A stretch of DNA of 64,000 nt, taken from NCBI GenBank assembly GCA_937775205.1, contig CALKBX010000005.1:186001-250000 (forward strand), in the 5' to 3' direction. The notes below the pieces were generated by a model. It was not told the DNA's origin. It searched no databases and was given only the letters and a program-made list of their open reading frames with translations. This document shows positions 17,629-30,076 of the stretch, piece by piece; the stretch's first letter is position 1; every line of letters begins with the position of its first letter. The position numbers and the translations under genes are program-made. This DNA is from an uncultured Verrucomicrobiae bacterium (lineage in GTDB: Bacteria > Verrucomicrobiota > Verrucomicrobiia > Limisphaerales > UBA1100).

Positions 17629-17756
17629 ATTTTCCATTTTTTTCATAAAAACCAGCAAAAATCGCCTATTTTGGGAGCTTGTGAAAAAAATCACAAAATC
17701 GCTTGCAAGATGCCGCTGTATTCGTAGGATGCGCGCCGGAGCGGTTCTTTTGGATG

Positions 17757-18407
17757 TCTAACGTCTTCCCAAAATGGACCAATCGTCTGCCTTTGATTGC
17801 TTTGGTGGGCGGATTGGTGACGGGCGCCTGCGTAGTTGCAGGTGTCACGTATTATTTTACCCCCAAGTTTACGCGGGTGGGTTATCAGCCTATTCAACCG
17901 GTTTCATTCTCGCATGAGGTTCACGCGGGGCAGCTTGGGCTCGATTGCCGTTACTGCCACGATGGCGTGGAAAAATCGTGGTTCTCAAACATCCCCGCTG
18001 CCGAAACCTGTATGCGCTGCCATACCTCGGTGTTGAAGGATGATCCTCGTTTGCAACCGATCCGCGATGCGTTTGAAAACGATAAACCGATCAAGTGGGT
18101 GCAGATTCATAAAACGCCGGACTATGTTTATTTTAATCACGCGGTGCACGTGAACCGCGGCGTGAGCTGCGTGAAATGCCACGGTCGCGTGGATCAAATG
18201 GACGAGGTGAAGCACGCCAAGTCATTGAGCATGGCCTTTTGCCTCGATTGCCATCGCAGTCCGCACGAGCAAGTGCGGCCGCAGAGTGAGGTGTTCAACC
18301 TCGGCTGGGAGCCCGGCGAGGATTGGGTGGCCGAACGCGACGGCGCGGCGTTGGTCAACAAAATGAAATTGCGAACTTCCGAGAGCTGTTCGGCCTGTCA
18401 TCGATGA
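17757..18407 (+). CDS. actA: Alternative Complex III subunit ActA, pentahaem cytochrome c
   Basis: Five CxxCH motifs (CRYCH, CMRCH, CVKCH, CLDCH, CSACH) plus N-terminal TM; operon context. Confidence 0.9.
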   Translation, partial: SNVFPKWTNRLPLIALVGGLVTGACVVAGVTYYFTPKFTRVGYQPIQPVSFSHEVHAGQLGLDCRYCHDGVEKSWFSNIPAAETCMRCHTSVLKDDPRLQPIRDAFENDKPIKWVQIHKTPDYVYFNHAVHVNRGVSCVKCHGRVDQMDEVKHAKSLSMAFCLDCHRSPHEQVRPQSEVFNLGWEPGEDWVAERDGAALVNKMKLRTSESCSACHR

Positions 18408-21400
18408 ACGACGAATCTTCAACCCCTCAAACTGAATACTGGCGCAGCATTGGCGAAGCCAACGGCACGTCGGAGCACGCGGACTGGAGCGACAAGGAAT
18501 TTCCCGAGGGCGCGAAGGAGTTGCCGGAAGATTTTTCGCGGCGCGATTTTCTTAAGTTGATGGGTGCCTCCGCCGGCTTGGCGGGTGTGGGATTGTTGGG
18601 CGTCGGTTGTCGGCGTCCGGTGGAAACGATTATTCCCTTTGGCGAACAGCCCGCCGGTTATGTGCACGGCGTGCCGCAATTTTTTGCCACGGCTCGACCC
18701 ACGGCTACGGGCGCGGTGCCATTGGTGGTGAAGTCCGATGAAGGCCGTCCCACGAAGGTGGAAGGCAACGCCGACCATCCGGACAGCAACGGCGCGACCG
18801 ATCTTCACACGCAAGCGTCGATCCTGAATTTGTACGACCCCGACCGCGCGCGGGAATTCACCGTGTACGGTAAGGCAATGAAAGACGGTCGCGCCGATGC
18901 CATAAAGAAATTGGCAGAATTGGTGGATAAGAACGTGCCCACCGCCTTCCTGATGTCCGCGGGCAACTCGCCCTCACGCGCGCGGATGATTGAAAAAATC
19001 ACCACAAAAATGGGGGCAAACGCGAAGTTTTATGTGCACGAAGCGGTGGATTACGCGGTGCATTCGCGCGCTGCCACGGCTGTTTTTGGTGCTACAGTGA
19101 AGCCATTTTGGAAGCTCGATAAAGCGGCAATCATCCTGTCGCTCGATTGCGATTTTATTGGCACGGAGGAAGATTCAAGCCGCCATATGCGCGACTTTGC
19201 GCGCGGCCGCAAGCTGGCCAAAAACGAAGGCCGCATGAACCGCCTTTATGTGGCCGAGGCGTTGATGAGCCAAACCGGCGCTAACGCCGACCACCGCCAG
19301 CGCATGAACGCCAGCGCGGTGACCAATGCTGCCGGTTATCTCGCCAAGGCACTGGGTATTACGGTGAAGGGCAACGTGTCTGTGCCGACTAATAAAGAAT
19401 GGCTCGATAAATGTCTGGAAGATTTGCAGGCGCACGCCGGCAAAGGTTTGGTGATGGCCGGTTATCGCCAGCCGCAGGCGGTGCATGAGTTGGTGAATCT
19501 CATCAACGAAAAACTCGGCAACCTTGGTCACACGGTGGAGATTCACGTGAGCGACACGCCCCCCGTCCACGGCAACCTGCACGATCTCAAGGATAACCTT
19601 GGCAACGTCGATCGCATCATCAATCTCGGCTGCAATCCCGCTTACGATGGCGGTGCGGATTTGGATTGGGCGGCGAACGCCAAAGGCAAAACCGCTTTTC
19701 GTCTCAGTCATTTTGCCGAGGACGAATCCAGCGAGGCCACCGGCGTAGTTGCGCCGCGCGCACATTATTTAGAAAGCTGGGGCGATGCTCGCACTAGCGA
19801 TGGCACGCTCGTGCCGGTGCAGCCGCTCATCGCGCCGCTCTTCGATGGCCTTTCGGAACTCGAAGTGCTTTCCGCTTTTGCATACGGCATTGGTTCCTCC
19901 GGTAAACAGCTCGCGAAGGAAGTGCACGAGATTGTGCAGGACACCTTGAAGCTGGAAAACAGCGACGCGAGTTGGGGTCACTTTTTGCACAGCGGTTTTC
20001 TGGCCGATAGCGCCGGTGGAAAAAAGAATGAACTTCCGGGCAAATCAGCCAGCAAATTGCTTTCGGCTGAAGCCATAAGCGAAACTACCATTAGCGAAAC
20101 TAATCTTGAAGTCGTCTTCACCGCTGATCACAGCGTGGGTGATGGCACGTTTGCCAACAATGGTTGGTGCCAGGAACTTCCCGATCCGATCACAAAAATC
20201 ACGTGGGACAACGTGATGAGCATCAGCCGTGTGACAGGTGAAAAACTCGGCCTCGGCAATGGTCAAGTGGCCAAGCTGACGTTGAATGGTCGCTCGGTGG
20301 AAGGCCCCATTTGGATTCAGCCGGGCATGGCCGATAACACCGTATGTCTGCCGCTGGGGTACGGGAAAAAGCATGGCCGCATTGCGAATTTCAAGGGCGA
20401 AGGCGTGGGCTTCAACGCGTACGCGGTGCGCGACACGGATTTCCCGAACATCGCCGTGGGCGGCAAGCTTTCGGATACTGGCAAAACGCATTCCCTTTCC
20501 AGCACGCAAGAGCATTGGAGTATGGAAGGCCGGTCGATCATTCGTGAGGCGACCTTGGCGAAATACAAAGAGACGCCAAATTTCGCGCTTGAGATGGGAA
20601 TAAAATCCCACGCCCGGAACGAAGGCAAAATTTACCAGCACCCTTACAAGGAACGCCCAAGCCTCAAGAGCGACGTCCATCAATGGGGAATGTCGGTGGA
20701 TCTCAGCAGCTGCACCGGTTGCAGCGCGTGTGTGATTGCCTGCCAAAGCGAAAACAATATTCCCATCGTCGGCAAGGAACAGGTGGGCAACGGCCGCGAA
20801 ATGCATTGGCTGCGCATCGACCGTTATTACACCGGCAAGGATCACGATCCCAGCGTCAACGCTACGGCGGGCGATGACGAGCAGCATTTGGAAACTTGGA
20901 TTGATGACCCGCAAGTGATCAATCAGCCGATGATGTGCCAGCATTGCGAGAGCGCTCCGTGCGAGACGGTTTGCCCCGTGAACGCCACGGTGCACGATGA
21001 TGAAGGCCTGAACACGATGGCCTACAATCGCTGCGTCGGCACGCGGTATTGCTCGAATAACTGCGCGTGGAAAGTGCGCCGGTTTAATTTCTTCGATTAC
21101 AATAAACGTCCACTCGACAAGTTGTACGATTCGCCGATGACCAAGCCTTCGTTGTTCTTCGATTGGATGGAGAGCCGCGAAAAGAGCAACCGGCCCGAGG
21201 ACGAATGGGATTTGGTGAAGCTTGCCAAGAATCCTGACGTGAGCGTGCGAATGCGCGGCGTGATGGAAAAATGCACGTACTGCGTGCAACGCATCGCGGG
21301 GGCCAAGATCGCACAGAAGGTGAAAGCCAAATCCGGCAACGACGTGCAAGTGCCCGCTAACGGAGTGAAGACCGCTTGCGAACAAGCTTGCCCCGCCGAG

Positions 21401-21643
21401 GCGATTACGTTTGGAAATTTATTGAACGAGGACGACGACGTAAACGCCGAGAAAGCCAGCCCGCGCAATTACGAAGTGCTCGGCTTCCTCGACAACGTCC
21501 CGCGCACGACTTACCTCGCCAAGATTCGCAACCCCAACGCGGCGATGCCCGATGCTTACGAGAAACCGTTTAGCACTTCGGAGTATCATCCGGAAGAAGA
21601 GCACGATGCCAAAGACGAGGGCCACGGAAAGGCCGATCACTAA
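18404..21643 (+). CDS. actB: Alternative Complex III subunit ActB (molybdopterin-oxidoreductase-like plus Fe-S domain), Tat signal
   Basis: RRDFLKLMGASAGLAG; CTGCSACVIACQSENNIPIVGKEQV; CQHCESAPCETVCPVNATVHDDEGLNTMAYNRCVGTRYCSNNC; CTYCVQRI. Confidence 0.93.
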   Translation: MNDESSTPQTEYWRSIGEANGTSEHADWSDKEFPEGAKELPEDFSRRDFLKLMGASAGLAGVGLLGVGCRRPVETIIPFGEQPAGYVHGVPQFFATARPTATGAVPLVVKSDEGRPTKVEGNADHPDSNGATDLHTQASILNLYDPDRAREFTVYGKAMKDGRADAIKKLAELVDKNVPTAFLMSAGNSPSRARMIEKITTKMGANAKFYVHEAVDYAVHSRAATAVFGATVKPFWKLDKAAIILSLDCDFIGTEEDSSRHMRDFARGRKLAKNEGRMNRLYVAEALMSQTGANADHRQRMNASAVTNAAGYLAKALGITVKGNVSVPTNKEWLDKCLEDLQAHAGKGLVMAGYRQPQAVHELVNLINEKLGNLGHTVEIHVSDTPPVHGNLHDLKDNLGNVDRIINLGCNPAYDGGADLDWAANAKGKTAFRLSHFAEDESSEATGVVAPRAHYLESWGDARTSDGTLVPVQPLIAPLFDGLSELEVLSAFAYGIGSSGKQLAKEVHEIVQDTLKLENSDASWGHFLHSGFLADSAGGKKNELPGKSASKLLSAEAISETTISETNLEVVFTADHSVGDGTFANNGWCQELPDPITKITWDNVMSISRVTGEKLGLGNGQVAKLTLNGRSVEGPIWIQPGMADNTVCLPLGYGKKHGRIANFKGEGVGFNAYAVRDTDFPNIAVGGKLSDTGKTHSLSSTQEHWSMEGRSIIREATLAKYKETPNFALEMGIKSHARNEGKIYQHPYKERPSLKSDVHQWGMSVDLSSCTGCSACVIACQSENNIPIVGKEQVGNGREMHWLRIDRYYTGKDHDPSVNATAGDDEQHLETWIDDPQVINQPMMCQHCESAPCETVCPVNATVHDDEGLNTMAYNRCVGTRYCSNNCAWKVRRFNFFDYNKRPLDKLYDSPMTKPSLFFDWMESREKSNRPEDEWDLVKLAKNPDVSVRMRGVMEKCTYCVQRIAGAKIAQKVKAKSGNDVQVPANGVKTACEQACPAEAITFGNLLNEDDDVNAEKASPRNYEVLGFLDNVPRTTYLAKIRNPNAAMPDAYEKPFSTSEYHPEEEHDAKDEGHGKADH

Positions 21644-23131
21644 ATGAGTGACGCCGCCGGACAATCTGCGCAAGCCGTTGAGACGCATACGCCCAAGGAA
21701 TTGGTGCGGCAGCCGTTGGTGCTGAACAACCGGCCGCTCGGTTGGATCACCGAGCAAGTGTGCAGCATCGTGGAAGGCAAAATGCCGAAGTGGTGGAACG
21801 TGGCATTCGTGGTGAGTTTCCTCACCATGCTGATGTGCTTCGGCTACATCGGTTATCTCATCACCACCGGCGTGGGCGTGTGGGGCTTGAATCATCCCGT
21901 TGCGTGGGGCTGGGCGATTGTGAACTTCGTGTTTTGGATTGGCATCGGCCACGCGGGCACTTTGATTTCCGCCATCCTCTTTTTGTTGCGCCAAAAATGG
22001 CGGTGCTCCATCAACCGCACAGCGGAGGCGATGACTATTTTCGCGGTGATCTGCGCCGGCATTTTCCCGGGCATTCACGTGGGCCGCATTTGGCTGGCGT
22101 GGTGGCTGTTCCCGATCCCCAACGCGCACGGCATTTGGCCGCAGTTCCGCTCGCCGCTATTATGGGATGTGTTTGCGGTGTCGACGTATTTCACTGTGTC
22201 GCTGCTCTTTTGGTACATGGGCTTGATCCCCGACCTCGCGACCATCCGCGATCGCCTGCGCATTGCGGGCAAGAAACTCAATTCCGGTTTGGACTGGATG
22301 ATCAATCGCTTCAAGCAGTTCGCCTACGGCTTCTTCGCCATGGGCTGGACGGGGAGCAACCGTCACTGGCGCAATTATGAAAAGGCCTACCTTCTGCTCG
22401 CGGGCCTGAGCACGCCGCTGGTGCTTTCGGTGCACTCGATCGTGTCGTTTGACTTTGCCGTGTCGCAAGTGCCCGGCTGGCACACCACAATTTTCCCGCC
22501 TTACTTCGTGGCGGGCGCGGTGTTCTCCGGATTCGGCATGGTGCTCACGCTGATGATTCCGATGCGCGCGCTGTTTAAGCTGGAGGAAATCATCACCATC
22601 CGTCACCTCGAGTTGATGTGCAAAGTCATCATCGCCACCGGCAGCATCGTCGGCTACGCGTACGGAATGGAATTCTTCATTGCGTGGTACGGCGGCAATC
22701 CGTACGAGTTATACGCCTTTAAGAACCGCGCCTTCGGCCCGTATTGGTGGGCGTATTGGACGATGATTTCCTGCAACGTCATTAGCCCACAACTGTTCTG
22801 GTTCCAGTGGTGCCGCACGTCGCCGTGGTTTATTTTTATCGTCTCCATATTTGTAAACATCGGAATGTGGTTCGAGCGCTTTGTGATCGTGGTCACCTCA
22901 TTGCATCGCGATTATCTGCCATCGAGCTGGGGATATTACAGCCCCACACGCGTGGATATTTTGACCTTCGTGGGCACTTTCGGATTGTTCATGACACTGT
23001 TCCTGTTGTTCATCCGATATCTGCCGACCATTGCCATCAGTGAAGCAAAAGGCGTGACGCCGCAAGCCGATCCGCACCACAAATTGGGTGGGGCAAAACC
23101 AAGTCAACCCGAAGCGGAGGGCGCGCACTAA
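21644..23131 (+). CDS. actC: Alternative Complex III subunit ActC (NrfD/PsrC-like quinol-interacting membrane subunit)
   Basis: Polytopic; [42 protein letters not shown]; operon context. Confidence 0.93.
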
Positions 23132-23667
23132 TGAGCCAGCCTTTCGCCATCATTGCTGAGTACGACACGCCGGCCGACATCATGGCCGCGGCGGAAAAAG
23201 TGCATGCTGCCGGTTACAAAAAATGGGACGTGCACACGCCGTTCCCCGTGCACGGCATGGATGACGCGATGGGCTTGAAGAATGCGCAGGTCGGTTGGTT
23301 CACTTTCTTCGGCGGCCTCACGGGACTGACTGCCGGGATGTTGATGATTTATTTTATGAACAAAGTCGACTACGACATCGTGGTCGGCGGCAAGCCGCTC
23401 TTCAGCGGGTTTTATGCATTCCCCGTCGCTTACGAAATGACGATTCTGCTCGGCGCGTTTGGGTCGCTCGGCGGGATGTTTATTTTGAACCGACTGCCGC
23501 GCCATCATAATCCGTTGCTGGCGAACGACCGTTTTGCGGCGGTGACGGACGACAAATTTTTCGTGGTTATCGAATGCGACGATCCCGCTTACGACGAAGC
23601 CGCCACGCGCGCGCTGCTCGAGGGCACCGATCCGCAACACATCGAAATGGTGGAGGACGCCCAATGA
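23131..23667 (+). CDS. actD: Alternative Complex III subunit ActD (DUF3341)
   Basis: IIAEYDTPADIMAAAEKVHAAGYKKWDVHTPFPVHGMDDAMGL. Confidence 0.9.
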   Translation: MSQPFAIIAEYDTPADIMAAAEKVHAAGYKKWDVHTPFPVHGMDDAMGLKNAQVGWFTFFGGLTGLTAGMLMIYFMNKVDYDIVVGGKPLFSGFYAFPVAYEMTILLGAFGSLGGMFILNRLPRHHNPLLANDRFAAVTDDKFFVVIECDDPAYDEAATRALLEGTDPQHIEMVEDAQ

Positions 23668-24374
23668 GATACGTACTGATTGGCATTGCGATGGGGGCGT
23701 TTATGGTCGTGGCACTGGCGGGATTCCGCGGCGACATCTCGCGCAAACCACCGCTCGAAGTAATTGCGGATATGGATCGCCAGCCGAAACTGCGGCCGAT
23801 GGAGCCCAACGCATTTTTCAAAAATGGCCTCAGTTCGCAGCGATTGGTGAAAGGCACCGTGGCACGCAGTGAACCGTTGGTGACGGCGAGTGGCGAAAAA
23901 GTATATCCCTTTCAAACCAATCACGCGGTGAACAAAGGCTACACGATCGCCGATGGCGCGACGAATTTTGTGTCCATTCCCCTGCCGGTGACGATGGCGT
24001 TTGTGGAACGTGGCCGCGAGCGGTTTGGAATTTCGTGCGTTCCTTGCCACGGTGCGCAAGGTGATGGCAATGGCATCGTGGGCAAGTTCGGCTTCAGTGG
24101 TATCCGTGATTTGCATGCTGAGACAGCATTGAAGCTGGCCGATGGCGCCGTTTTCAAAATCATTTCCGAAGGCCAAAAGTCTTCACCAACCGAAGCGGGG
24201 ATGTTGGGCTACGCCTCGAACATCGATGTGGTCGACCGCTGGGCCATCGTGGCTTATGTGCGCGCGTTGCAGTTGAGCCGTTTGGGCGATGCGAAAAAAG
24301 ACAACGTGCCTGCGCGATTTTTGATTCCAGAAAAAGCTCCTGAAGCCGAAGCCGCAAAGGAGGGCACTGAATAA
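23664..24374 (+). CDS. actE: Alternative Complex III subunit ActE, monohaem cytochrome c
   Basis: GISCVPCHGAQGDGNGIVGKFGF; N-terminal membrane or signal segment. Confidence 0.88.
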   Translation: MRYVLIGIAMGAFMVVALAGFRGDISRKPPLEVIADMDRQPKLRPMEPNAFFKNGLSSQRLVKGTVARSEPLVTASGEKVYPFQTNHAVNKGYTIADGATNFVSIPLPVTMAFVERGRERFGISCVPCHGAQGDGNGIVGKFGFSGIRDLHAETALKLADGAVFKIISEGQKSSPTEAGMLGYASNIDVVDRWAIVAYVRALQLSRLGDAKKDNVPARFLIPEKAPEAEAAKEGTE

Positions 24375-25651
24375 TGAGCACCGAAACCGCCACTGTGCCC
24401 GTGGAGAAACAAGAAACCCAGTGGCGCAACATCCCGCAAATCGCGGTGGTGTCCGGTCTGTTGCTTTGCGTTTACGGCTTCATCGACGACAAGCAGCAGT
24501 TTGCCTATTCGTATCTCACTGCGTTTATGTTTTTCCTGAGCATCGGGCTAGGTTCGTTGTTCCTCGTGTTGGTGCATCACCTGTTTGATGCCGGTTGGTC
24601 CGCGCCCATTCGGCGGTATCTTGAGCATCTTTCCTGTTTACTTTTCCCGTGGCTTGGGATTGCATTTATTCCGATTGGTTTTCTGGCGATGGATATTTAT
24701 CCGTGGATGCATTTGGATCCGCACGATGACCACGCACTGCACGCGAAGGCCGCGTTATTCAATAAACCGATGTGGTACACGGCCTCGGTGGTTTTATTTT
24801 TGGTGTGGGGTTGGCTGACGCATCGGCTGCGTTACTGGAGTTTGGAGCAGGATAAATCCGGCACCGAAGCGTTTGAAGGCAAACTGGTTTTCCCGGAAAA
24901 CTTGATGGCCGGTTTCACGCGTAATTTTCAGGGATTGTCTTTCGAGAGAGACAATCAACAGGTGATGTGCACGCGGATGATGCGCATTCACGCGGGCTAC
25001 GGCGTGGCGCTCTTTGCCTTCTCGCTCACGCTCGGTTGTATCCTGTGGATGAAGAGCATTCAGCATCAATTTTTCAGCACGATGTACGGTGTGTATTATT
25101 TCGCCGGCAGCGTGTGGGTGAGCATTGCCACCGCGTGGATCATCGGCCGCATCCTCAAGGCGCGCGGGCATTTGCCGCAACTCCATCGCCTGCAGTTTTA
25201 TCACCTCGGCACGCTGTTGCTGGCGTTCACGGTGTTTTATGCGTACATCCATTTCTCGCAATATTTTCTGATTTGGAATGCAGCGGTGCCGGAGGAAACG
25301 TTCTGGTATGTGATGCGCGAAAAAGGCACGTGGATGTACATCGGCGTGGCGCTCATCGTCGGCCACTTTGTGATTCCGTTCCTCGCGCTGCTGCGCATTG
25401 ACGGCAAACTCACCAACAAACTGATGGTGCCGGTATTCATTTGGGTGGTGCTGATGCACTATATGGACATGACTTTTAATGTAATGCCCGAAATTCATGC
25501 CGACGGCCCATCGCCCGCGCTGGCGGATTTAGGTGCCTTTTTGCTGTTGGGCGGCTCGCTGGCAATGATTTTTATCCGCAACCTGTTTGACCATCCTGTC
25601 TGCCCGCTGCGCGATCCGCGCATGGGCGAGGCGCTGGAGCGACACGAATGA
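24374..25651 (+). CDS. actF: Alternative Complex III subunit ActF (NrfD-like)
   Basis: Polytopic; LFLVLVHHLFDAGWSAPIRRYLEHLS; overlaps actE by 1 nt. Confidence 0.9.
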   Translation: MSTETATVPVEKQETQWRNIPQIAVVSGLLLCVYGFIDDKQQFAYSYLTAFMFFLSIGLGSLFLVLVHHLFDAGWSAPIRRYLEHLSCLLFPWLGIAFIPIGFLAMDIYPWMHLDPHDDHALHAKAALFNKPMWYTASVVLFLVWGWLTHRLRYWSLEQDKSGTEAFEGKLVFPENLMAGFTRNFQGLSFERDNQQVMCTRMMRIHAGYGVALFAFSLTLGCILWMKSIQHQFFSTMYGVYYFAGSVWVSIATAWIIGRILKARGHLPQLHRLQFYHLGTLLLAFTVFYAYIHFSQYFLIWNAAVPEETFWYVMREKGTWMYIGVALIVGHFVIPFLALLRIDGKLTNKLMVPVFIWVVLMHYMDMTFNVMPEIHADGPSPALADLGAFLLLGGSLAMIFIRNLFDHPVCPLRDPRMGEALERHE

Positions 25652-26400
25652 GCCACGAACCGCAAACAACGGAAGCCACAGACGCTACGCGCCCCAGCTG
25701 GGCCGCGCACGAATTGGCGGCCTTGGCGCTGACGGTGGTGCTGGCGGTGTGGGTGGTCGCCCAATGGGGCGCCGCGGTGCAGCCGCAGCGGAACACCGAA
25801 CGTGATGAAAAACGCGCGGCAACGCTGGCCGAATTGCGCTCGGCGGATGAGGATGTACTGGATAGTTTTGGCGTGGTCGATGAACCGCTCAAGCGGTACC
25901 GCATCCCAATCCAAAACGCGATGACGCTCGTGGCGGAATTGGGTGCAAACAATATTGCCAAGGAAGTTGCCGAACGCACCGCGCCTCCGACGGATTTGAA
26001 ACTGGTTGAAATACCGGATCCGGATTTTTTGGCGGATGAATCTGAACTGGACGATCCGGACTTGATCGCTCAGGGTAAGACGTTGTTTCTGACCAAGATT
26101 TGTTTTACCTGCCACCAAAATGATCCGGCCGTGCCTGCGCCTGCGGGGTTGGCACTGGGAGCCCCCAAATTCATCGGCGATTTTTGGGGCAAAGAACGGT
26201 TGGTACATAAAGGCTTGGGCGGGCCGTTGGAGCGGGTGGTGATGGGGCCGGGATATTTTGCAGAATCCGTTTCGGCTGCCGGTTCCGGGTTACGCGTACT
26301 CAAAGGAGCTCTCACCCCCATGCCGCCGCCGCCGCCAGTAACCGACGAAGAAGTGAAGGCATTGATGGCGTATGTGCGTAGCTTGAGTCAGGAAAATTGA
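25648..26400 (+). CDS. Membrane-anchored monohaem cytochrome c (tandem copy 1)
   Basis: FLTKICFTCHQNDPAVPAPAGLALGAP...LTPMPPPPPVTDEEVKALMAYVRSL. Confidence 0.85.
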   Translation: MSHEPQTTEATDATRPSWAAHELAALALTVVLAVWVVAQWGAAVQPQRNTERDEKRAATLAELRSADEDVLDSFGVVDEPLKRYRIPIQNAMTLVAELGANNIAKEVAERTAPPTDLKLVEIPDPDFLADESELDDPDLIAQGKTLFLTKICFTCHQNDPAVPAPAGLALGAPKFIGDFWGKERLVHKGLGGPLERVVMGPGYFAESVSAAGSGLRVLKGALTPMPPPPPVTDEEVKALMAYVRSLSQEN

Positions 26401-26813
26401 TGAACTGGAAACCGGTAATTTTTATAGTGACCGGCCTCGCAGCATTCGGCGCGCAGGCGGATGAAAAGGAACTCATTGCCAAAGGCAAGACGCTGTTTCT
26501 GACCAAGATATGTTTTACCTGCCATCAAACTGATCCGGCAGTGCCGGCGCCGGCGGGATTGGCTTTAAAAGCGCCGATGTTTATTGGCGAGTTTTGGGGC
26601 AAGGAACGCGAAGTGGCGCTCGGCTTTGGCGGCAAGGTGGTGAAGGTGAAAATGGACGAGAAATATTTTATTGAGTCGGTGAAAATGCCGATGGTCAAAG
26701 TGGTGAAAGGCGCATTGGTACCAATGCCGCCCCCGCCCCCGCCCATTACCGATGAGGACATCGCTGCACTGATGGCTTACGTGAAAAGCTTGAGTAAGCC
26801 GCAGGTGAACTAA
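26400..26813 (+). CDS. Monohaem cytochrome c (tandem copy 2)
   Basis: FLTKICFTCHQTDPAVPAPAGLALKAP...LVPMPPPPPPITDEDIAALMAYVKSL; clear paralogue of the preceding gene; signal-peptide-like N-terminus. Confidence 0.85.
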   Translation: MNWKPVIFIVTGLAAFGAQADEKELIAKGKTLFLTKICFTCHQTDPAVPAPAGLALKAPMFIGEFWGKEREVALGFGGKVVKVKMDEKYFIESVKMPMVKVVKGALVPMPPPPPPITDEDIAALMAYVKSLSKPQVN

Positions 26814-26826
26814 TGAAATAATTTTG

Positions 26827-28293
26827 ATGAGCGAATCGATAGACAACATTGCACCTGAAGCTACGCCGGAGGAAATCAATGCCTCCTGTCGTTGGCCGGT
26901 GATGTTTCTGTTTTTCAGCGCGGCGCTGTGGCTGGTGAAAGCGGCGATCATCGGCGTAATGGGTTCGGTTAAATTGCATATGCCGGAATTTTTGTCCGAT
27001 ATTTCCTTCCTCACTTACGGCCATTTACAGGCCAACGCTTGGGTGGCATTTCTGTTTGGCTTCGGCGGCAACGCAGGGCTCGGCCTTACGCTGTGGATGC
27101 TCAGCCGCTTGCGCGGCGCGCCGCTGGCCCGTCCGGGTTTTGTCATCGCAGGCACGGTGCTGTGGAATGTCGGCGTCACCGCCGCGTTGGTTGGCATCAC
27201 TTTGGGCGATCAAAATGGCGTGGCGGGTTTGGAACTGCCGGTGTACGCCGGTCGCGTGCTCTTGATTGGGCAGGCATTCATCGCCTTCAGCGCCATCCTC
27301 ACTTATTTTTCACGCCGTCATAAACAGCTCTATCCCAGCACGTGGTACCTCATCGGGGCGCTGGTGGCGTTGCCTTGGATTGTGGGCACAGCGCATTGGC
27401 TGCTGGCGGCGGCACCCGTGCGCGGCGCGGCACAAATTCCTGTGGGACATTGGGCGACGACCAGTTTGCTGCAGGTGTGGCTGGGCTGTCTCGGCTTGGC
27501 GGCGGTGTTGTATTTTATTCCAAAAATTATTGGCCGCGAATTATTCAGCCGCCAATGGGCGGCGTTTGGATTCTGGATGCTGCTGCTACTGGGCGGTTGG
27601 GTGAACTTGAACTCCGGCTCGCCCTTGCCGGTTTGGCAAATCAAGCTGAGCCAGTTCGCCAACGGCCTTTTCATCTTTGTGGTGATCGCCGTCGGCTGGA
27701 ACCTTCGCCAAACCGCCCGCGGAGTGCCGTTGCTGGGATCAGAAAATTTAACGCTTAAGTTTATGGGCTTCGCGCTCGGCGCGTGGGTTGTGTCCGGCCT
27801 GTTCACGTTCTGCAATGTGTTTCCGGAGTGGAATGCGATACTGCAATTCACGTATGCGAACACCGCGCTGCGCCATCTATTCGCGTGGGGCTTCTTCGCG
27901 ATGGCGATGTTGGGCGGTATTTATTATGTGGCGCCGCGACTGTTGGGGTCCGATCTCGATTGGCCCTGCGGGCGGACAGTGCGTTGGGTATACCGGTTAA
28001 TTGCCGTGGGCGTAATCATCATCACACTGGCCGGTGTGGGGATGGCGTGGGGTCACGGCCAAGCGTTGCAACAAATAGGAGTGGACGCGATGACTTTACA
28101 AACCAAAGCCATTAACCCTATGCGCATCGCGTTTCTTGGGGAGATATTATTTATGGTCAGCAGCTTTATTTTCCTCGGCAGTTTGTTATGCCTCTTGTCA
28201 CGGAACTGTTGTGGTGAATTGAGCCCGATGGCGCTTTGGCGTCAGATTCGTGAAGCCAAAATGGAAGGTGAAACGGAAGGTGGCGCGCAATGA
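26827..28293 (+). CDS. cbb3 oxidase CcoN-like subunit I homologue, apparently lacking CuB/haem b3 ligands
   Basis: About 12 hydrophobic helices; subunit-I-like TYGHLQANAWVAFLFGFGGNA and ALRHLFAWGFFAMAMLGGIYYVAPRLL; no HH dipeptide anywhere. Confidence 0.75.
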   Translation: MSESIDNIAPEATPEEINASCRWPVMFLFFSAALWLVKAAIIGVMGSVKLHMPEFLSDISFLTYGHLQANAWVAFLFGFGGNAGLGLTLWMLSRLRGAPLARPGFVIAGTVLWNVGVTAALVGITLGDQNGVAGLELPVYAGRVLLIGQAFIAFSAILTYFSRRHKQLYPSTWYLIGALVALPWIVGTAHWLLAAAPVRGAAQIPVGHWATTSLLQVWLGCLGLAAVLYFIPKIIGRELFSRQWAAFGFWMLLLLGGWVNLNSGSPLPVWQIKLSQFANGLFIFVVIAVGWNLRQTARGVPLLGSENLTLKFMGFALGAWVVSGLFTFCNVFPEWNAILQFTYANTALRHLFAWGFFAMAMLGGIYYVAPRLLGSDLDWPCGRTVRWVYRLIAVGVIIITLAGVGMAWGHGQALQQIGVDAMTLQTKAINPMRIAFLGEILFMVSSFIFLGSLLCLLSRNCCGELSPMALWRQIREAKMEGETEGGAQ

Positions 28294-29465
28294 ACAAAGC
28301 CCCGTGGATTTTCTTGGGTGTGCTTTTCACGCTGAGCCTTTCGTGGTGGGGAATGGTCTATGGCCCCGCCTCGCAACTCGCTGGGCAATCAGCGGACAAA
28401 GGCGATGGTACCGCCGTGCTACCCCGCGTGGGTCTTGCAAAGCAGGGCGAACAAGTGTACCGCGAAAACGGTTGCTACTATTGCCATACCCGCACGGCGA
28501 CGGGCGGTGAGTTTGGTTATGAATTGCGGCTCTCACAATTGGGGGGGGATCGCGAAGTTACCGATGAAGTTCTCGGCGAGAACATCACTGTTGAAAACAC
28601 CCGGTTGATTGATTTGGCGTTTGAATTCAAATACGTGGTTGCCGCGAAAAAAACACTCGATGATGCAAACAAAGCGCTGGCGGATGCGAAAGAAAAGACA
28701 CCGGAACTAAAGGACGCAGTTGCGGTTGCAGAAAAAAGTTTATCGAATAATACGGCATCATTTAGAGAAGTGAATTCCAATGTCACGGAAAAGATCACTG
28801 CCCAAGATGAAAAAGATACCATTCTGTTTAGGGCTTACGGACTGTCGGGTGTGGAAATAAAAGACAAAGCGTTAATGATCCAGCTGGGTATGGGCGAACA
28901 AATTATTGACGAGCACAGAAAAATCGCCAATGAAGCCATAATTAAACTCACCCATGGCAAGGCGCAGTGGGGCGACATCGAGGATATGGTGCGCGGTTTA
29001 AAAACCCGTGCAGGCGCGCAGTTTAAGTTGCAGCCGGTGGTGATCGATTGGCCGGATGTGCAAAACGGGGTGGCGTTGCGCCAATCGGTGACACGCGATT
29101 TTATGCACGATACCTACGCGATGCCCGGCGTCATGCAGCTGGGTCCGAATCTCGCTAATGCGGGCGGCACGCCGGCTCTGGAGGATTCGAATCAGTTTTA
29201 TGTGCATCTTTATCAGCCACGCCTCATCAACGAAAAATCGGTGATGCCACCGTATCGGTATTTGTTTCGGAAAATAAAAGTCAATACCGGTGAAACCTCG
29301 CCAAAAAATGCATTGAAGATCAAGGGTAAGGACTTGGTAGCAGGCTACGCCATTATCCCCACGGAAAAGGCTGAGGCGCTATTTGAATTTCTTAAAAGCC
29401 TGCGTACCGACGCGCTGCCGGAAGCACCGATCGTGGATAACCCGAAACCGGCGGACGACCAATGA
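28290..29465 (+). CDS. CcoO-like monohaem cytochrome c with long helical insert
   Basis: GEQVYRENGCYYCHTRTATGGEFGYELRLSQLGGDREV; MQLGPNLANAGG; NEKSVMPPYRYLF; coiled-coil-like KKTLDDANKALADAKEKTPELKDAVAVAEKSL. Confidence 0.75.
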   Translation: MNKAPWIFLGVLFTLSLSWWGMVYGPASQLAGQSADKGDGTAVLPRVGLAKQGEQVYRENGCYYCHTRTATGGEFGYELRLSQLGGDREVTDEVLGENITVENTRLIDLAFEFKYVVAAKKTLDDANKALADAKEKTPELKDAVAVAEKSLSNNTASFREVNSNVTEKITAQDEKDTILFRAYGLSGVEIKDKALMIQLGMGEQIIDEHRKIANEAIIKLTHGKAQWGDIEDMVRGLKTRAGAQFKLQPVVIDWPDVQNGVALRQSVTRDFMHDTYAMPGVMQLGPNLANAGGTPALEDSNQFYVHLYQPRLINEKSVMPPYRYLFRKIKVNTGETSPKNALKIKGKDLVAGYAIIPTEKAEALFEFLKSLRTDALPEAPIVDNPKPADDQ

Positions 29466-30076
29466 GCGAAAATTTCTCCAACTTGAACGAGCCCAGCGAG
29501 CCCAGCAGTGGCACGGCGCAAATGCCGATGGGCATTATGATTGTTCTTATTTTGCTCGGCTATATCGGGTGCTACAACGTGGATCAGTGGAACGCCAATT
29601 TCGCCGCCAATGTGCACGCGCCATTCACCGAGCCGGACGAGGTGGCTTCGCTGGCACCCTCGGCTGAGGAATTGCTGGTGGCGCGCGGCAAACAAGTCTA
29701 TTCCAAAAATTGCGTGGCCTGTCACCAAGCTAATGGCGCAGGGTCAGGCACAGACATCCCGCCCTTGGCCGGTTCCGAATGGGTGAAAGGCGATGTTGCC
29801 ACTATTGTGGCCATCACACAGAAGGGGCTTATTGGGCCGATCAGCGTGGCCGGGAAAAAATATGGCGCGGGAGCCATGACTGCTGCGGGCGAAACGCTCA
29901 GTCCCGATGAATTAGCGGCCGTAATCTCCTATATCCGGAAAGAGTGGAGTAATGGCGGAAGTGCGGTTGGAGTCGAAGAGGTAAATGATGCCCGAAAAAA
30001 GGTGGACGACAGCGGCCAAAGCGGGCAGTGGGAAGTGAAGGCTCTGGAAGCAGCCGGTTTCATAATTCCTGAATAA
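29462..30076 (+). CDS. CcoP-like membrane-anchored monohaem cytochrome c
   Basis: IMIVLILLGYIGCYNVDQW; GKQVYSKNCVACHQANGAGSGTDIPPLAGSEW. Confidence 0.8.
   Translation: MSENFSNLNEPSEPSSGTAQMPMGIMIVLILLGYIGCYNVDQWNANFAANVHAPFTEPDEVASLAPSAEELLVARGKQVYSKNCVACHQANGAGSGTDIPPLAGSEWVKGDVATIVAITQKGLIGPISVAGKKYGAGAMTAAGETLSPDELAAVISYIRKEWSNGGSAVGVEEVNDARKKVDDSGQSGQWEVKALEAAGFIIPE

Follow-up and report, generated by a model that had tools for sequence, protein, structure and literature searches.

An oxidase subunit homologue in an ACIII operon

Haem-copper oxidase genes are usually taken to show that a bacterium respires aerobically and to indicate its affinity for oxygen. The window, a stretch of 64,000 nucleotides from an uncultured Verrucomicrobiae bacterium, holds such a gene in an operon for Alternative Complex III (ACIII), and the locus raises the question of whether the product can reduce oxygen and, if not, what it may be kept for. 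The gene, called N here (26827-28293, plus strand), is an intact open reading frame encoding 488 amino acids with no internal stops. Its product scores 80.5 bits against PF00115, above the Pfam family cut-off; with the ccoN model TIGR00780 it reaches 39.7 bits, below the curated cut-off of 583. The nearest solved structures by sequence are cbb3 CcoN chains (phmmer; 3mk7 was aligned), hhalign to a canonical CcoN profile gives a probability of 99.4% (E 1.2e-21), and the homology spans the whole length of the protein. An AlphaFold model built on ten close rows has a pLDDT of 46.5, too poor for placing haem or for testing contacts. The top seven PDB fold matches of this low-confidence model (Foldseek) are all cbb3 chains, with TM about 0.6, and NorB is a weaker match; it would appear that N shares the CcoN fold and retains the 12 helices of an oxidase. 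From these profile and model comparisons N is firmly assigned as a homologue of C-type (cbb3) subunit I. The original prediction had described just such a homologue tied to ACIII, and PF00115, hhalign and operon order agree with it.

The ACIII genes lie upstream of N in the order actABCDEF, all on the plus strand like the genes that follow them. ActA (17754..18407), with five CxxCH motifs, has its start chosen at MSNVFPKW inside the open reading frame 17703-18407. ActB (18404..21643), a molybdopterin-like and Fe-S protein, is assigned from sequence, position and homology to the ActB of relatives. ActC (21644..23131) is an NrfD-like quinol-binding membrane subunit (PF03916, 74 bits), ActD (23131..23667) scores 212 bits against PF11821, ActE (23664..24374) is a monohaem cytochrome c with one CxxCH (PF13442/PF00034), and ActF (24374..25651), which has no Pfam match, is assigned as a second NrfD-like membrane subunit from position and relatives. 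Next come a membrane-anchored monohaem cytochrome c (25648..26400) and its paralogue, a second monohaem cytochrome c (26400..26813). N is followed by O (28290..29465), a CcoO-like monohaem cytochrome c (FixO, 39.9 bits) that retains CxxCH and the axial Met, and by P (29462..30076), a CcoP-like monohaem cytochrome c (TIGR00782, 39.2 bits).

Some parts of this operon vary. The N-terminal part of the 25648-26400 product resembles a small protein of one helix that stands by itself at that place in other operons, and the product looks like a fusion of that protein with a cytochrome c domain. The 26400..26813 cytochrome has no counterpart in the loci L007, L009 and L011. The O protein of the window, at 391 aa against a family median near 230, has an additional stretch, Lys/Ala/Glu-rich and coiled-coil-like, that separates the haem motif from the FixO-like part.

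Loss of the cofactor ligands

N contains seven His residues (H51, H66, H165, H190, H208, H350 and H410) and no His-His dipeptide. It was aligned by phmmer to 3mk7, by MAFFT with canonical and family members, and by hhalign, and the main replacements agree. The helix-VI CuB His is Thr212 in all three. The helix-VII HH pair corresponds to Asn262 and to part of a two-residue deletion, leaving helix VII without any His, and the cross-linked Tyr six residues before the pair is Gly256. The helix-II low-spin haem His is Ala71. In helix X the HxH motif becomes L348-R349-H350 in the ungapped phmmer and MAFFT alignments, which are preferred here to the hhalign alignment with its three-residue gap, and the haem b3 proximal His is Leu348. 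H350 is the sole residue of N at a canonical ligand position. At the places of the three CuB His and the one haem b3 His the alignments give Thr, Asn, a gap and Leu348, and the expectation from first inspection that the HH pair, the helix-VI His, the b3 His and with them the O2-reducing site are missing is borne out, the Tyr being gone as well. The positions of the haem b, haem b3 and FeB His ligands of nitric oxide reductase (NorB) are empty in the alignment. Among members of the window clade, none of the six ligand His is conserved, nor is the cross-linked Tyr.

Open frames and the sequences of relatives rule out mis-assembly or a frameshift of N: nine relatives sequenced in other assemblies lack the CuB, Tyr and b3 ligands too, so the loss is not an assembly error.

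Distribution of ligand loss

Of 388 genomes sampled from the phylum, a clade-profile search finds relatives of N in 95, nearly all within the window's class; a separate search finds ActD, the marker for ACIII, in 135 of the 388. Within the class, a genome with ACIII almost always has N as well. The exception is genus f4/g4, whose 13 genomes (G021, G024, G027, G030, G033, G063, G082, G096, G111, G113, G221, G232, G249) give a very divergent ActD match and zero N matches in the profile search, possibly a further step in which N was lost altogether.

Regions around 88 N matches were extracted, and 98 ACIII-linked N proteins were compared. On contigs long enough to show it, the genes run ActA-B-C-D-E-F, N, O, P irrespective of whether the ligands of N are kept. 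Ligand states are two-peaked, and the loss seen in the window recurs widely: 28 of the 98 proteins are intact, with six ligand His and the Tyr, and 70 are degenerate, all without the Tyr and with no more than two of the four active-site His; there are no intermediates. All eight outgroup sequences have the full set of six His and Tyr, so ligand loss is the derived state. Most positions that are fixed in intact N and lost in degenerate N fall at the level of the haems, in the outer half of the helices; degenerate members retain the structural Gly, Pro and Trp, and positions of the cytoplasmic half are as well conserved as the others. O has its CxxCH in 98/98 loci, and P has one haem motif in each of the 95 loci where it is found. 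Only two degenerate proteins, L061 and L069 (genomes G013 and G167), have both low-spin ligands. They form a separate clade, with CuB, b3 and Tyr lost and the low-spin pair kept, the state that the original prediction had proposed for the window.

A single loss is rejected by the AU test on both the N tree (p 0.0012) and the ActABC tree (p 1.9e-6); the former needs at least three state changes and the latter at least nine. The ActABC tree serves as a second estimate because the N tree groups most degenerate rows together, perhaps via long branches. The two trees conflict in places, which could come from transfer or recombination within the operon. L058 is a recent loss, nested among close intact relatives in both trees, and here N evolves faster following the loss. 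Between the window and L004:6162-7625, synonymous divergence is 0.11 in N and 0.6-0.8 in the measured act genes; the unevenness suggests recombination inside the operon.

Co-loss of CcoS

All 27 intact operons have a FixS/CcoS gene separating actF from N; it is absent there from all 65 degenerate operons, and the window operon has none. On well-supported branches, all seven independent contrasts between CcoS and N state are concordant (p 0.016). A whole-genome search with PF03597, over genomes mostly without another C-type oxidase, finds CcoS in 7 of 9 genomes with intact N and in 0 of 15 with degenerate N, the window's genome among the latter. The model is imperfectly sensitive, having missed the CcoS of G258 and G146, which the operon search found, and having no match in G346, a genome with a fused cbb3 gene. 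CcoH, CcoI and CcoS are reported to be essential for active cbb3 oxidase (PMC7558416), and mutants without CcoS assemble an enzyme that is inactive (PMC5742617). Since such mutants still assemble the enzyme, loss of CcoS fits a complex that assembles and no longer needs an active N.

Other oxidases

Electrons need another acceptor if N has no O2-reducing site, as was foreseen when the locus was first described, and a search for a canonical oxidase supplies a candidate. In the window's genome (92% complete) the sole other haem-copper oxidase found is a canonical A-type CoxA on another contig, with CoxB-, CoxC-, CtaA-, CtaB- and Sco-like genes as neighbours. The CoxA locus has no haem c motif, and cytochrome bd oxidase was not found in this 92% complete genome. 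A second strong haem-copper oxidase is present in 78 of the 80 genomes searched, and the two exceptions, G001 and G146, both have intact N. CoxA lies close downstream of N in 23/70 degenerate and 1/28 intact loci, counts that ignore descent; the window's genome, with CoxA on its separate contig, has no such adjacency.

What N may do

The ligands have been lost repeatedly, yet N is under purifying selection beside ACIII, which makes it probably a scaffold rather than the oxidase of its annotation. Values of dN/dS for N in the window clade are 0.05-0.09, a range like that of ActE and ActF; the N matches listed have no internal stops; and degenerate N keeps the same operon place in 70 of 70 cases. 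The reading we prefer, at a probability of roughly 0.7, is that N is a cofactor-free pseudo-oxidase, a membrane platform for the cytochromes that would link ACIII to a separate aa3 oxidase. Ancestral N would have been the catalytic C-type subunit I of an ACIII-CcoNOP assembly, and would then have lost CuB, haem b3 and low-spin haem b, with ACIII and the c-type cytochromes CcoO and CcoP staying in place. Degenerate N, to judge by its residues, would bind no cofactor and may hold CcoO, CcoP and the extra monohaem cytochromes beside ACIII. Electrons would run from menaquinol through ACIII (ActA/ActE) and the c-haems on the N-O-P platform to the A-type aa3 oxidase. That N touches O, P, ACIII or aa3 is an assumption based on gene order and on homology to CcoN. 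An electron-transfer or structural haem-b subunit had been proposed; of the two, a structural role without haem fits better, and a conserved low-spin haem b is not supported. For the wider claim, that an oxygen-reductase core became a haem-free part of an ACIII-cytochrome relay at least three and perhaps about nine times across the class, with the cbb3 credited with high affinity in methanotrophs among the cases, we see the odds as evenly balanced.

Haem could be held by unusual ligands, for example H51, H190, H208 and H410, and this counts against a cofactor-free N. These four residues, which by CcoN topology should lie towards the periplasmic side, are invariant in all ten members of the window clade, and H190 and H208 arose in that clade, the rest of the family having mostly other residues. 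That they form a new metal or haem site is nevertheless improbable: the other degenerate clades lack two of the four.

An electron-transfer subunit whose active site is gone and whose bis-His low-spin haem b survives is very unlikely. H350 of the window's N does occupy a canonical low-spin ligand position, as predicted, and the L061/L069 clade is in exactly such a state, but the partner ligand is Ala71, the H350 position is Gln in 5/10 clade rows, and CcoS is absent even from the L061/L069 operons. The His of TYGHLQANAW, H66, had been suggested as the other ligand. In canonical FGRLRPLH its counterpart is the Arg that precedes the true low-spin ligand by five residues; the position is Arg in 7/10 clade rows, and H66 is dismissed as a conserved feature. 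These differences occur among relatives about 70-90% identical; L006 and L011 have H350 and lack H66, and five rows have neither.

We also give little credence to an active non-redox role in transport, such as a path for protons or quinone that is coupled to ACIII; the 12-helix fold and the evenly conserved cytoplasmic-half positions would suit it, but zero conserved proton-path residues were identified and nothing positive points towards transport. That N is a decaying relic, functionless at present, is scarcely credible, for the faster change after loss in L058 and the 13 genomes with divergent ActD and no N match are outweighed by the low dN/dS, the lack of stops in the listed matches and the constant operon place.

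Relation to known systems

Read as a cofactor-free platform, N has partial parallels. It resembles CcoN of cbb3 oxidases (e.g. PDB 3mk7) in whole-length homology, in fold and in the CcoO- and CcoP-like genes that follow; it differs in having no conserved ligand His or Tyr, no CcoS and a tie to ACIII, and the CcoP-like subunit of the window differs from cbb3 CcoP in having one haem motif. PMC8498564, citing Refojo 2010, places a C-type oxidase beside ACIII in verrucomicrobial methanotrophs and Opitutaceae, in the same type of operon (ActABCDEF, then CcoN, CcoO, CcoP). That paper presents a working oxidase, whereas most operons examined here have a ligand-less N. In the ACIII-aa3 supercomplexes of Flavobacterium johnsoniae and Rhodothermus marinus, as the available part of PMC8552683 describes them, electrons pass from ACIII through c-haems to an A-type oxidase, the route proposed here; there the oxidase is joined to ACIII, and an oxidase-like third component goes unmentioned in that part. 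CcoN4 of Pseudomonas aeruginosa and other orphan CcoN are, like N, extra CcoN-type subunits in a respiratory chain, but PMC5697931 reports them as supporting cbb3 oxidase function and does not present them as ligand-less. We found no report of a ligand-less CcoN in the literature searched, mainly openly accessible papers.

A gene that passes the Pfam cut-off is ligand-less in 70 of these 98 ACIII-linked cases, so readings of respiration or affinity from such genes can err. Published genome papers treat the ACIII-linked cbb3 of methanotrophs as a working oxidase, and PMC6688271 connects these genes with the high affinity of Ca. Methylacidiphilum for oxygen. Family f5, with pmoA in 5/5 genomes searched, is from that gene presumably the verrucomicrobial methanotroph family. 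Its N, found in four pmoA-bearing genomes, retains one His of the HH pair as its only ligand residue, and this loss bears on the published inference of oxygen affinity (PMC6688271). The other haem-copper genes of f5 look A-type, B-type or NorB-like by motif. At L130, L131, L197, L198 and L199 (G266, G072, G054, G042) an A-type oxidase gene adjoins ligand-less N.

The N family forms a natural series, from all cofactors through low-spin ligands only to none, in which losses recur and CcoS disappears in step with them. The series makes testable both the roles of an oxidase protein beyond catalysis and the onward transfer of electrons from ACIII.

Variation in CcoO

The axial Met of CcoO is present in all 28 intact operons. 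It is replaced by Cys (e.g. SKCPSHRFLF) in one clade of 15 loci (L098, L105-L109, L112, L113, L115, L116, L118-L120, L125, L126), and by Lys, Arg or His in a small number of further degenerate operons. Such replacements suggest a changed, perhaps lower, haem potential.
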